From contig NZ_JAACYI010000018.1 in NCBI RefSeq assembly GCF_009996735.1, positions 1-64,000 of the forward strand: 64,000 bases of DNA, read 5' to 3'. The DNA comes from Cellulomonas sp. APG4 (lineage in GTDB: Bacteria > Actinomycetota > Actinomycetes > Actinomycetales > Cellulomonadaceae). Below, piece after piece: positions 26,524 to 29,328 of the stretch; positions within the stretch are counted from its first letter, which is position 1, and each line of letters starts with the position of its first letter. The notes beneath the pieces are model-generated. The model had not been told where the DNA came from, searched no databases, and saw nothing but the letters and a program-made list of their open reading frames with translations. The position numbers and the translations under genes were made by a program.

Positions 26524-27813
26524 TCAGGTGCGCGCGAGGAAGTCGGTCACCAGGGCGCCCATCTGCTCGAACTCGATGAGGAACCCGTCGTGGCCGAAGT
26601 CCGAGCGGATCACGTGCAGCTCGGCGTCGGGGATCGCCGCGGCCATCCGGCGGGACTGCGTGGGCGGGTACAGCCTGTCGGTGTCGACGGCGATCACCAG
26701 GGCGGACGCGGCGACCCCGGCGAGCGCGGCCTCGACGCCGCCCCGGCCTCGGCCCACGTCGTGCGAGAGCATCGACTCGGTGAGCACGAGGTAGGTGTTG
26801 GCGTCGAACCGGCGTGCGAGCTTGCCCGCGTGGTGGTCCAGGTAGGACTGCACGGCGTAGCGCCCGCGGCCCGTGATGGGGAGCTCGGCGCCCTGGGGCA
26901 GCCGGCCGAACCGCTCGTCGAGCTCGACCGAGCTGCGGTACGTGGTGTGCGCGATCTGGCGCGCCACGCCGAGACCGCGGTGCGGGCCCTCGCCGTCGGG
27001 CAGGTCGTAGTAGTCGCCGCCGCGCCACCCCGGGTCCGAGCGGATCGCCTCGAGCTGGGGGTGCGCCCACGCGATCTGGTCGCCCGAGGTCTGCGCCGTC
27101 GTGACGAGCGCCGCGACGCGCTGCACGCGCGCGGGTTCGGTGACGGCCCACTCGAGCACGCGCATGCCGCCCATCGAGGCGCCGATCACCAGGGCCCACG
27201 TGTCGATCCCGAGCGCGTCCGCGACGGCGACCTCCGCGCGCACCTGGTCGCGCGTGGTGACGTACGGGAACCGCCCGCCCCAGGGGTGTCCGTCGGGCGC
27301 GGTGGACGCCGGCCCGGTGCTGCCCTGGCAGCCGCCCAGCACGTTGGGGGCGACCACGAACCAGCGGTCGGTGTCGATGGGGCGACCAGGCCCGACCATG
27401 GTGTCCCACCATCCGGCCGTGGGGTGACCCGGCCCCGCGGGTCCGGTCAGGTGCGAGTCGCCCGTGAGCGCGTGCAGCACCAGGACGGCGTTGTCACGCT
27501 CGGGCGAGAGGGTGCCCCACGTCTCGTACGCCATCCGCACGTGGGGCAGGTGGCCGCCGCCCTCGAGGTCGAGCGCGCCGATGTCGACGAACCGTCGGTC
27601 ACCCACGGGGTCGCCCTCGCGCCAGGCACCCGACGCCGGGACGGGCGCTCCCTCGGCCCACACCGCCCCGGCCCGCATGCGCTCGGCGGACGGGTCCCGG
27701 GGCGCGGGGGCGGACGCACCGGGCTGCACGAGGTGCAAACCTACGGTGCGTGCGTCCCTGCGGCCCGGGGTGTCCACGGCGTGCGCCGCGGGCCGGTGCG
27801 GGTGGGCGGTCAT
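26524..27813 (-). CDS. metX: Homoserine O-acetyltransferase
   Basis: 429 residues, alpha/beta-hydrolase fold. It acetylates homoserine with acetyl-CoA, the committed step toward methionine. Landmarks are VLHALTGDSHLTG (oxyanion region), NVLGGCQGSTGP, the nucleophile elbow VIGASMGGMRVLEW with the catalytic Ser, VDTDRLYPP with the catalytic Asp and FGHDGFLIE with the catalytic His. It has an N-terminal extension of about 60 residues relative to many MetX proteins. ATG 27813 overlaps the metY stop (TGATG), giving a tight metY-metX operon. Succinyl specificity cannot be excluded by motif alone, but the MetY partner and phylum favour acetyl. Confidence 0.94.
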   Translation of the reverse strand: MTAHPHRPAAHAVDTPGRRDARTVGLHLVQPGASAPAPRDPSAERMRAGAVWAEGAPVPASGAWREGDPVGDRRFVDIGALDLEGGGHLPHVRMAYETWGTLSPERDNAVLVLHALTGDSHLTGPAGPGHPTAGWWDTMVGPGRPIDTDRWFVVAPNVLGGCQGSTGPASTAPDGHPWGGRFPYVTTRDQVRAEVAVADALGIDTWALVIGASMGGMRVLEWAVTEPARVQRVAALVTTAQTSGDQIAWAHPQLEAIRSDPGWRGGDYYDLPDGEGPHRGLGVARQIAHTTYRSSVELDERFGRLPQGAELPITGRGRYAVQSYLDHHAGKLARRFDANTYLVLTESMLSHDVGRGRGGVEAALAGVAASALVIAVDTDRLYPPTQSRRMAAAIPDAELHVIRSDFGHDGFLIEFEQMGALVTDFLART

Positions 27814-29129
27814 CAGGCGCCCTTGGCCGCTCGGAAGCCCGCGTCGAGGTCCGCCAGGATGTCGTCGATGTGCTCGAGGCCCACCGAGAGCCGCACGAGG
27901 CCCGGGGTGACGCCCGAGAGCGCCTGCTCCTCGGGGCTCAGCTGGCTGTGCGTCGTCGACGCCGGGTGGATCACGAGCGAGCGCACGTCGCCGATGTTCG
28001 CGAGGTTGGAGTGCAGCTCGAGGCCGTCGACGAAGGCCTTGCCGGCCTCGGCGCCGCCCGCGAGCTCGAACGCGAGCACCGCGCCGGCACCCTTGGGCAG
28101 GTACTTGCGCGCGTTGGCGTGCCAGGGGCTCGAGGGCAGGCCCGCGTAGTGGACGCCCTGCACCTCGTCGCGCGCCTCGAGCCACTCGGCGACCTTCTGC
28201 GCGTTCTCGACGTGCCGCTCGATGCGCAGCGACAGCGTCTCGAGGCCCTGCGCGATGAGGAACGCGTTGAACGGCGAGATCGCCGAGCCCAGGTCGCGCA
28301 GCAGCTGCACGCGGGCCTTGAGGATGTACGAGAGGTTGACGCCGAACGCGCCGTCGACGCCCAGGTCGCGCGCGTAGACGAGGCCGTTGTAGGTCGGGTC
28401 CGGCGTGTTGAAGTTGGGGAAGCGCTCGGGGTGCTGCGCGAAGTCGAACGAGCCGCCGTCGACGATGACGCCGCCGATCGCGGTGCCGTGCCCGCCCAGG
28501 AACTTGGTGGCCGCGTGCACCACGACGTCGGCGCCGTGCTCGAGGGGACGCAGCAGGTAGGGCGTGGGGATCGTGTTGTCGACGACGAGCGGCACGCCCG
28601 CCTCGTGCGCGACCCCGGCGACGGCCTCGATGTCGAGCACGTCCGAGCGCGGGTTGGGCACCGACTCGGCGAAGAAGAGCTTGGTGTTCTCGCGGACGGC
28701 GTCGCGCCAGGCCTGCGGCTGGTGCGGGTCGCTCACGAAGCTCACCTCGACGCCGAGCTTGCGCAGCGTGTGGGCGAACAGGTTGTAGGTGCCGCCGTAG
28801 AGGCTCGGGCTCGCGACCACGTGGTCGCCCGCCTCGGCGACGTTGAGGATCGCGTACGTGCTCGCGGCCTGGCCCGACGCGAGGAGCAGCGCGCCGACGC
28901 CGCCCTCGAGGGACGCGATGCGGTCCTCGACCGCCTGCTGGGTCGGGTTGCCGATGCGCGTGTAGATCGGGCCGAGGTCCTGCAGCGCGAAGCGCGCGGC
29001 GGCCGTGTCGGCGTCCGGGAACACGAACGAGGTGCTCTGGTAGATGGGCAGCGCGCGTGCGCCGGTGGTCGGGTCCGGGGTCTGCCCGGCGTGGATCTGA
29101 CGCGTCTCGAAGGACCAGCTCTGGCTCAT
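27813..29129 (-). CDS. metY: O-acetylhomoserine sulfhydrylase
   Basis: 438 residues, a PLP enzyme of the Cys/Met metabolism family. It makes homocysteine from O-acetylhomoserine and sulfide. Visible features are ETRQIHAGQ at the N-terminus, YTRIGNPTQQAVEDRIASLE, LLASGQAAS (cofactor phosphate), VVDNTIPTPYLLRPLEHGAD and the Schiff-base lysine in HAATKFLGGHG. SHSQL-type C-terminal substrate residues are in HPASTTHSQL. Length is normal for the long (about 430 aa) MetY group. AGGAG precedes the ATG. It is the first gene of a leader-peptide-controlled operon with metX. Confidence 0.95.
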   Translation of the reverse strand: MSQSWSFETRQIHAGQTPDPTTGARALPIYQSTSFVFPDADTAAARFALQDLGPIYTRIGNPTQQAVEDRIASLEGGVGALLLASGQAASTYAILNVAEAGDHVVASPSLYGGTYNLFAHTLRKLGVEVSFVSDPHQPQAWRDAVRENTKLFFAESVPNPRSDVLDIEAVAGVAHEAGVPLVVDNTIPTPYLLRPLEHGADVVVHAATKFLGGHGTAIGGVIVDGGSFDFAQHPERFPNFNTPDPTYNGLVYARDLGVDGAFGVNLSYILKARVQLLRDLGSAISPFNAFLIAQGLETLSLRIERHVENAQKVAEWLEARDEVQGVHYAGLPSSPWHANARKYLPKGAGAVLAFELAGGAEAGKAFVDGLELHSNLANIGDVRSLVIHPASTTHSQLSPEEQALSGVTPGLVRLSVGLEHIDDILADLDAGFRAAKGA

Positions 29130-29271
29130 GAGGACTCCTGGTGAACAGGGCGAGAACCAGTCGTCAGCACACTGACCCTGGTCCCCGCGGAGGGGACGGA
29201 CGAGGGTGGGTGCACGTGGGGGTGGTCCCGAGCCGGTGCTCGTGGCCTCAGGGGCGGGCGACCGGGCGCGG

Positions 29272-29308
29272 GCACGCCGAACGTGCGCGGGTCAGCGGCA
29301 CATTCGGC
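29272..29308 (-). promoter_or_regulatory. Mutually exclusive hairpins overlapping the Cys leader peptide (candidate attenuator)
   Basis: In the leftward transcript GCCGAAUGUGC (29308-29298), which spans the Cys codons, can pair with GCACGUUCGGC (29286-29276) over 11 pairs with one G-U. The downstream arm can instead fold with CGUGC (29276-29272) as GCACG-UUCGG-CGUGC. The two structures exclude each other, so ribosome position on the leader peptide could select between them. A further hairpin GTCCCC/GGGGAC lies at 29181-29197 nearer metY. Structures are by eye. Confidence 0.6.
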
Positions 29309-29315
29309 AGTACAT
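29292..29315 (-). CDS. Seven-residue Cys-containing leader peptide upstream of metY
   Basis: ATG at 29315 followed by TAC TGC CGA ATG TGC CGC TGA encodes MYCRMCR. Two of seven codons are Cys, in front of a sulfur-assimilation operon. The start sits 7 nt after a TACGCT box, so the transcript would be leaderless and begin on the leader ATG. Cys-rich leaderless short ORFs acting as cysteine-responsive attenuators are established in mycobacteria; applying that model here is inference. Confidence 0.6.
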   Translation of the reverse strand: MYCRMCR

Positions 29316-29322
29316 GGCCCCG

Positions 29323-29328
29323 AGCGTA
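29323..29328 (-). promoter_or_regulatory. -10-like hexamer for the metY-metX transcript
   Basis: TACGCT on the minus strand is followed by 7 nt and the leader-peptide ATG. No good -35 box was found. Confidence 0.5.

Follow-up and report, generated by a model that had tools for sequence, protein, structure and literature searches.

The metY-metX genes of the window, as we call the whole 64,000-nucleotide stretch of DNA analysed here, are preceded by a mini-ORF with methionine and cysteine codons in a conserved frame. Judging from sequence comparison, we think it rather probable that this leader controls the two genes through the ribosome translating it, and that it senses the supply of Met-tRNA and Cys-tRNA; such control would be riboswitch-gated in relatives and leaderless in the window. 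A broader and more tentative reading, whose chances we would put somewhat below even, is that CGA-AUG mini-ORFs form a previously unnamed family controlling sulfur-amino-acid genes across several actinomycete families. Its ancestral SAM-IV riboswitch would regulate the mini-ORF and not the enzyme, with SAM gating initiation and Met-tRNA or Cys-tRNA (or a pause at CGA-AUG) governing elongation, and some lineages would have lost the riboswitch and kept the mini-ORF in leaderless form.

The whole feature lies on the minus strand, which an earlier interpretation made from the letters of the window (the sequence-only reading) had left unstated. A -10-like element, TACGCT (29323-29328), stands 7 nt before the ATG (29315-29313) of the frame ATG TAC TGC CGA ATG TGC CGC TGA (29292-29315), which encodes MYCRMCR (peptides are written here up to their stop codon) and is kept in relatives. 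The core codons CGA ATG TGC (Arg-Met-Cys) occupy positions 29298-29306 inside the mini-ORF. A predicted stem of 11 bp with one G-U, stem 1, pairs GCCGAATGTGC within the mini-ORF (29298-29308) with GCACGTTCGGC (29276-29286, hereafter segment 2), which is GCRCACGTTCG-like in most relatives; the stem is present in both the MFE and the centroid folds. The stability of the leader as a whole is not unusual (z -1.65, equalled by 14 of 200 shuffles). The sequence-only reading had claimed seven codons with their Cys codons in an 11-bp stem before metY-metX, and sequence and fold confirm this; it had also called the frame leaderless, which agrees with the spacing of the promoter-like element, and transcription would accordingly begin at the ATG.

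Downstream of the leader, metY comes before metX. A Shine-Dalgarno-like AGGAG (29135-29139) precedes metY, which encodes an O-acetylhomoserine/O-acetylserine sulfhydrylase (27813-29129; NF005872, 769.5 bits, cut-off 703), and metX encodes a homoserine O-acetyltransferase (NF047917, 523.4 bits, cut-off 475; 26524-27600 is the stretch tested, the true start being further upstream). The distance from the mini-ORF ATG to metY is 186 nt in the window and ranges from 144 to 336 nt across 72 leaders described below. The leader is C-rich (C 45%, G 30%), and no intrinsic terminator with a U-run was found between 29090 and 29480. An Rfam scan of the window matched no family, SAM-IV included, and a Pfam search on one N-terminus gave no match. 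Between leader and metY lies an inverted repeat, GGTCAGTGTGCTGAC (29163-29177, minus strand), with similar, GGTCAGYGCGCTGGC-like sequences in the closest relatives; its role is not part of the reading given here.

The mini-ORF is widely kept among relatives. Searching 59 genomes for metY, among them that of the window, yielded 30 loci (two of them, L014 and L015, identical), and 27 of these, the window and 26 of 29 relatives, carry the pattern TANNNT-N6/7-ATG followed by a mini-ORF; the alignment of relatives that the sequence-only reading had proposed thus finds the peptide conserved. The exceptions are L005, with only ~160 nt upstream, L027, with MSKRMCCY and no promoter pattern, and L032, with neither. 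A covariance model built from 26 leaders, the window's included, matched in 49 of 248 genomes of the order, leaving 199 without a match; 30 loci were retained from these matches, the window being one, of which 29 stand before metY and one, L060, before metX, and a second metX leader, L064, came from the class-level model search. Among 131 unique metY upstream regions, some of them fetched with the covariance model, 73 have a leaderless-type mini-ORF, and all of these except L152 have an in-frame CGA-ATG. In each of the 72 leaders that combine a leaderless start with a CGAATG core, the ATG is in frame with the core, at a distance of 6 nt (58 leaders), 9 nt (13) or 12 nt (1). The spacing from the -10 element to the ATG is 6 (23), 7 (48) or 8 (1), partly by construction, the search pattern having allowed 6-8 nt. 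When the count is confined to unique loci fetched through metY itself, 39 of 91 carry the leaderless-type leader.

A short Arg-Met frame is present in 16 of 51 named actinobacterial metY loci, including those of Cellulomonas, Cellulosimicrobium, Actinotalea, Isoptericola, Paraoerskovia, Puerhibacterium and Ornithinimicrobium sediminis; among the same 51, none was seen at the loci of Arthrobacter, Kocuria, Nesterenkonia, Leucobacter and Microbacterium. At class level, 8 of 60 metY upstream regions have an in-frame CGA-ATG mini-ORF and 52 do not. L122, whose core lies near an SD-GTG in another frame, was left uncounted. A gap-free core pattern run over 394 class genomes gave 28 matches versus 1 for the reversed control: one is the window, 12 belong to family f19 and lie before another gene, and the remaining 15 looked like chance. 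The 24 weak class-level loci of the model (L065-L088) were likewise mostly chance-like, four of them being f19 leaders. Chance as an explanation of the conservation of the mini-ORF itself is rejected.

The conservation extends to the level of the codon. The core Arg codon is CGA in 72/72 leaderless leaders, and in all 39 of the loci fetched by metY CGA likewise encodes the Arg that precedes the internal Met; in six ORFs of the window CGA makes up 7 of 176 Arg codons. The codon preceding CGA is CGT in 32 peptides, TGC in 18, CGC in 16, CGA in 3, CAC in 2 and ATG in 1, so that it encodes Arg in 51/72 and Cys in 18/72. After the core Met comes Cys in 70/72 (TGC 36, TGT 34) and Arg in the other two, and the frames end in TGA (69), TAG (2) or TAA (1). 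At least one Cys occurs in 71 of the 72 peptides, far above chance; 46 have one, 24 two, one three and one none. CGA and Met are the fixed part of the frame and Cys is nearly fixed, and the two-Cys version that the sequence-only reading had described does not define the leader, being a minority form, to which the window belongs. The window's MYCRMCR has no stretch of adjacent Cys codons close to its stop. Cys-less variants comprise MTRRMRS (CGA ATG CGC AGC), found before metY in L018/L046 of family f12 and before metX in L060 and L064 of genus g41, and MNHHRMRR in L125. Since CGA-ATG is invariant, the step that is sensed could be Met or the CGA-AUG pair at least as well as Cys.

The link to SAM-IV riboswitches (Rfam RF00634) had not been seen in the sequence-only reading. 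SAM-IV gave no match in the window's genome with stricter filters, and a scan of 20 other loci with a leaderless leader found no Rfam family at all; it occurs in 149 of 246 class genomes. It was detected in 24 of 60 class-level metY upstream regions scanned (six further ones, L319-L324, lay outside the 60) and in 8 of 14 upstream loci chosen for missing the standard leader or having a variant form. Pooling these 24 and 8 leaders, we retained the 16 in which aptamer and metY are 110 nt or more apart and left out the 16 with shorter gaps. An SD-led mini-ORF with in-frame CGA-ATG is present in 10 of the 16 (0.00 expected, with 300 shuffles per leader), and CGA is the Arg codon in all 10 Arg-Met cases; at least two Cys codons are found in 7 (0.03 expected) and at least one in 14 (0.25 expected). 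Examples are MCCCCRMTRR, MCCCRMQQVTGA, MRSCRMHTR, MSCQRMPRR, MCIRRMCCR, MIERMCR and MNHHRMRR. In these related families the mini-ORF sits between SAM-IV and metY and has its own Shine-Dalgarno site. A comparable arrangement is found in family f37, taken for Streptomyces, where 9/9 loci (L225, L228, L231, L232, L236, L241, L242, L244 and L245) read GTG-(AGC AAG or AAC CAG)-CGA-ATG-CGN-TAG 40-60 nt behind SAM-IV, encoding MSKRMR or MNQRMR without Cys; a short hairpin is predicted at their stop codon. The downstream gene resembles a SufS-like cysteine desulfurase at one locus (194.8 bits, below cut-off, on partial sequence), and in Streptomyces lividans SAM-IV stands before a gene annotated as cysteine desulfurase (PMC8079986).

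Stem 1 is a common prediction among the leaderless leaders. When all 72 were folded with 20 nt of one generic gene start placed at every 3' end, the core was predicted to pair with the sequence following the stop at a mean of 0.731; in 12 sets of dinucleotide shuffles the mean was 0.162, and no set came up to the observed value. The second arm begins 0-7 nt past the stop, variably, in 71 leaders; by eye, L024, L026, L027, L120 and L121 keep the mini-ORF without a good stem. Covariation in stem 1 is absent (own arms 17.78, swapped arms 17.58), as its 5' arm is nearly invariant. The sequence-only reading had further proposed an exclusive second hairpin and, as a check, asking whether the peptide and both stems covary. 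Such a hairpin can indeed be drawn in the window as GCACG-TTCGG-CGTGC (29272-29286; arms 29286-29282 and 29276-29272, 5 bp). Over the 72 leaders, however, it is not enriched relative to shuffles, nor is it favoured when a ribosome is masked in at the Cys codon (1.05 vs 1.32 in shuffles), and it was dropped as a general alternative fold. Five leaders of family f9 (L038, L039, L041, L043 and L045) have a perfect GCGCACG-TTCGG-CGTGCGC hairpin a few nucleotides past the stop of the mini-ORF; in these the proposed second hairpin would be a strong one.

The predicted folds offer a more distant candidate partner for segment 2. Long-range pairing is favoured when the mini-ORF is masked (9.17 vs 6.33), and the downstream helix of segment 2 (GCGCACG..) is better than in shuffles (18.17 vs 15.49), with p<0.05 in 14 of 71 leaders (L313 being left out because its segment 2 was not located), a median p of 0.21 and p 0.29 for the window alone. 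The partner is often RCGTGCGC, and matched variants occur as GCGCACAT/ATGTGCGC in L051 and GCACACG/CGTGTGC in L140; in the window a helix search gives ACGTGC (29212-29217), segment 4, as the candidate partner of the GCACGT in segment 2. Own partners score above swapped ones (18.17 vs 17.84, p 0.028, kinship ignored). The covariation between segments 2 and 4 is thus weak, and the suggestion that a long-range partner competes with stem 1 in place of the local hairpin is weakly supported by these models. Segment 3 (GUGUGCCC) has no enrichment of downstream pairing (17.65 vs 17.65), and a first impression of GGUGUGC/GCACACC covariation was abandoned after that result. Opening of the metY Shine-Dalgarno site by a stalled ribosome was not seen either: its predicted accessibility changes by +0.008 with the ribosome masked at Cys, as in shuffles (+0.008), and falls with the ribosome at the stop (-0.025 vs +0.007, sd 0.011). 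The accessibility of the start region stays below that of shuffles with the ribosome at Cys (+0.009 vs +0.026), Met (-0.006 vs +0.024) or the stop (-0.010 vs +0.025; sd about 0.005), the reverse of what one would expect if a stall simply opened metY.

These observations suggest the following scheme. The mRNA would begin, leaderless, at the ATG of the mini-ORF, and the ribosome would read M-Y-C-R(CGA)-M-C-R and then stop. Were Met-tRNA or Cys-tRNA scarce, it would pause on CGA-AUG-UGC and cover the 5' arm of stem 1, freeing segment 2 (GCGCACGUUCGG) to pair elsewhere, most likely with a ACGUGCGC-type sequence that often lies 50-120 nt before metY, whereas fast completion of the mini-ORF would let stem 1 form. 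The refolded C-rich leader would then raise metY-metX expression under a shortage of sulfur amino acids. The read-out is probably Rho access or RNA polymerase pausing and not the hiding of the metY Shine-Dalgarno site; we favour the former two because there is no terminator, masking does not open the Shine-Dalgarno site and the leader is C-rich. In relatives with an SD-led mini-ORF behind SAM-IV, SAM plausibly gates initiation and Met-tRNA or Cys-tRNA elongation; in the window's lineage, with its leaderless mini-ORF and no riboswitch found, elongation alone could do the sensing. The signal might be Met-tRNA, Cys-tRNA or a CGA-AUG pause, and joint sensing of Met and Cys is favoured.

The nature of the signal is where the competing explanations diverge. 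The sequence-only reading had seen the geometry of attenuation by charged tRNA-Cys, with the leaderless poly-Cys frames of mycobacteria as the model and the Cys codons alone as the part that matters. The near-universal Cys of the leaderless leaders and its excess in the SAM-IV leaders uphold the part of that claim that concerns Cys codons, and Cys runs do occur in SAM-IV leaders of other families (MCCCCRMTRR, MCCCRMQQVTGA, MKICCCTRTVS and MHCCCTSIYT). A pure cysteine sensor nevertheless fits poorly with a window peptide that has no Cys run, with Arg before CGA in 51/72, with Met retained in 72/72 and with the Cys-less MTRRMRS, MNHHRMRR and f37 peptides, and neither a terminator nor a gain in Shine-Dalgarno access bears out the attenuation; we consider it unlikely. 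The invariance of CGA is not accounted for by a plain sensor of tRNA-Met or tRNA-Cys. It would be explained if the CGA-AUG junction were itself the sensor or pause device, either as a slow, inosine-decoded CGA before AUG or as a short arrest motif. CGA is decoded slowly, by inosine, and it persists whether the leader is leaderless or SD-led and whether or not the stem is present, before metY, metX, MetN-like and cysteine-desulfurase-like genes. In the window's own group, however, CGA is in addition paired to UCG within stem 1, and a device consisting of the junction itself appears doubtful to us as the whole account.

Two further explanations assign no sensing to the codons. The mini-ORF might be a ribosome loader or a site of termination and reinitiation that keeps Rho off or feeds metY, which would suit the C-rich leader, the missing intrinsic terminator and the unchanged Shine-Dalgarno site on masking; riboswitch gating of the mini-ORF's Shine-Dalgarno site would then suffice for control in relatives. 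Neither the codon-level invariance of CGA-ATG nor the Cys excess is needed for such a role, and 144-336 nt is a long way for reinitiation, and we regard this explanation as quite improbable. Lastly, a DNA operator or a protein-binding RNA site near the start, with the ORF incidental, could draw on the high nucleotide conservation and on CGAATGTG..CACGTTCG, an inverted repeat. It is disfavoured by the variable offset of the second arm and by length changes in codon multiples alone, and the varied stops (TGA, TAG, TAA) and the SD-led forms behind riboswitches also speak against it, which leaves it very improbable indeed. We return to the preferred reading, joint sensing of Met and Cys by the translating ribosome.

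Attenuation by leader peptides is already on record, as are leaders with Cys runs and a methionine leader from Streptomyces. In mycobacteria, Cys-responsive attenuation has been reported or proposed for leaderless poly-Cys short ORFs before sulfur-metabolism genes (Canestrari et al. 2020; Shell et al. 2015, PMC4633059). The leader described here shares with them a leaderless-type short upstream ORF with Cys codons before sulfur genes, and differs in having no Cys run, a constant Arg(CGA)-Met, metY-metX as its targets and a stem that reaches into the ORF. Leader peptides with Cys runs but no terminators before cys operons and cbs, for which Rho was suggested (Seliverstov et al. 2005, PMC1262725), are likewise short ORFs with Cys codons near the stop and no obvious terminator; the passage on methionine operons in that paper reports no conserved RNA structures upstream, whereas metY-metX here has a leader with a different core. 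At metE/ppe2 of Mycobacterium tuberculosis a B12 riboswitch interplays with a uORF (PMC11260477), so that there too a riboswitch is joined with a translated uORF upstream of a gene; the riboswitch is another one, and the term SAM-IV does not occur in the main text of that paper. SAM-IV precedes metY in relatives; none was found in the window or its genome, and in 10/16 long-gap leaders a CGA-ATG mini-ORF lies between aptamer and gene. With classical attenuators the leader shares codons for amino acids of the pathway in its frame, and differs in lacking an intrinsic terminator with a U-run. As far as the searchable passages of the open-licence literature go, we recognised no paper that describes either such a leader in front of metY or a mini-ORF downstream of SAM-IV. 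If our reading is correct, leader-peptide control is not confined to Cys runs but also works through a compact Arg-Met-Cys core in front of methionine genes, two sensors (a riboswitch aptamer and a ribosome) act in series through one mini-ORF, and a natural series with exchangeable parts leads from riboswitch-gated to leaderless forms. CGA-AUG is invariant down to the codon, an unexplained decoding feature that is directly testable.

The same core also occurs before other genes. In 12 genomes of family f19 (L090-L101) it takes the form ATG TGY TGY CGA ATG TGY CGC TGA, encoding MCCRMCR; no partner arm for stem 1 was seen by eye in these leaders. The next gene in L070 and L073 encodes a PhoB-like winged-helix protein (PF00486 in L070), which is perhaps a sulfur regulator. 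The Streptomyces lividans metL leader before metNIQ, which ends in CMCRRMCAF, has 29 codons and is called a methionine-dependent attenuator in PMC8079986, has a counterpart in L327 (1450-1520, plus strand), where a leader ending in GARCMCRMCAF carries CGA ATG TGC before a gene for a MetN-like ABC ATPase (TIGR02314, 346.8 bits, below cut-off, on partial sequence). With its 29 codons metL differs from the mini-ORF described here, and the passage on it in PMC8079986 connects it neither with SAM-IV leaders nor with a wider family. The short L327-type pattern matched in 1 of 12 f37 genomes.
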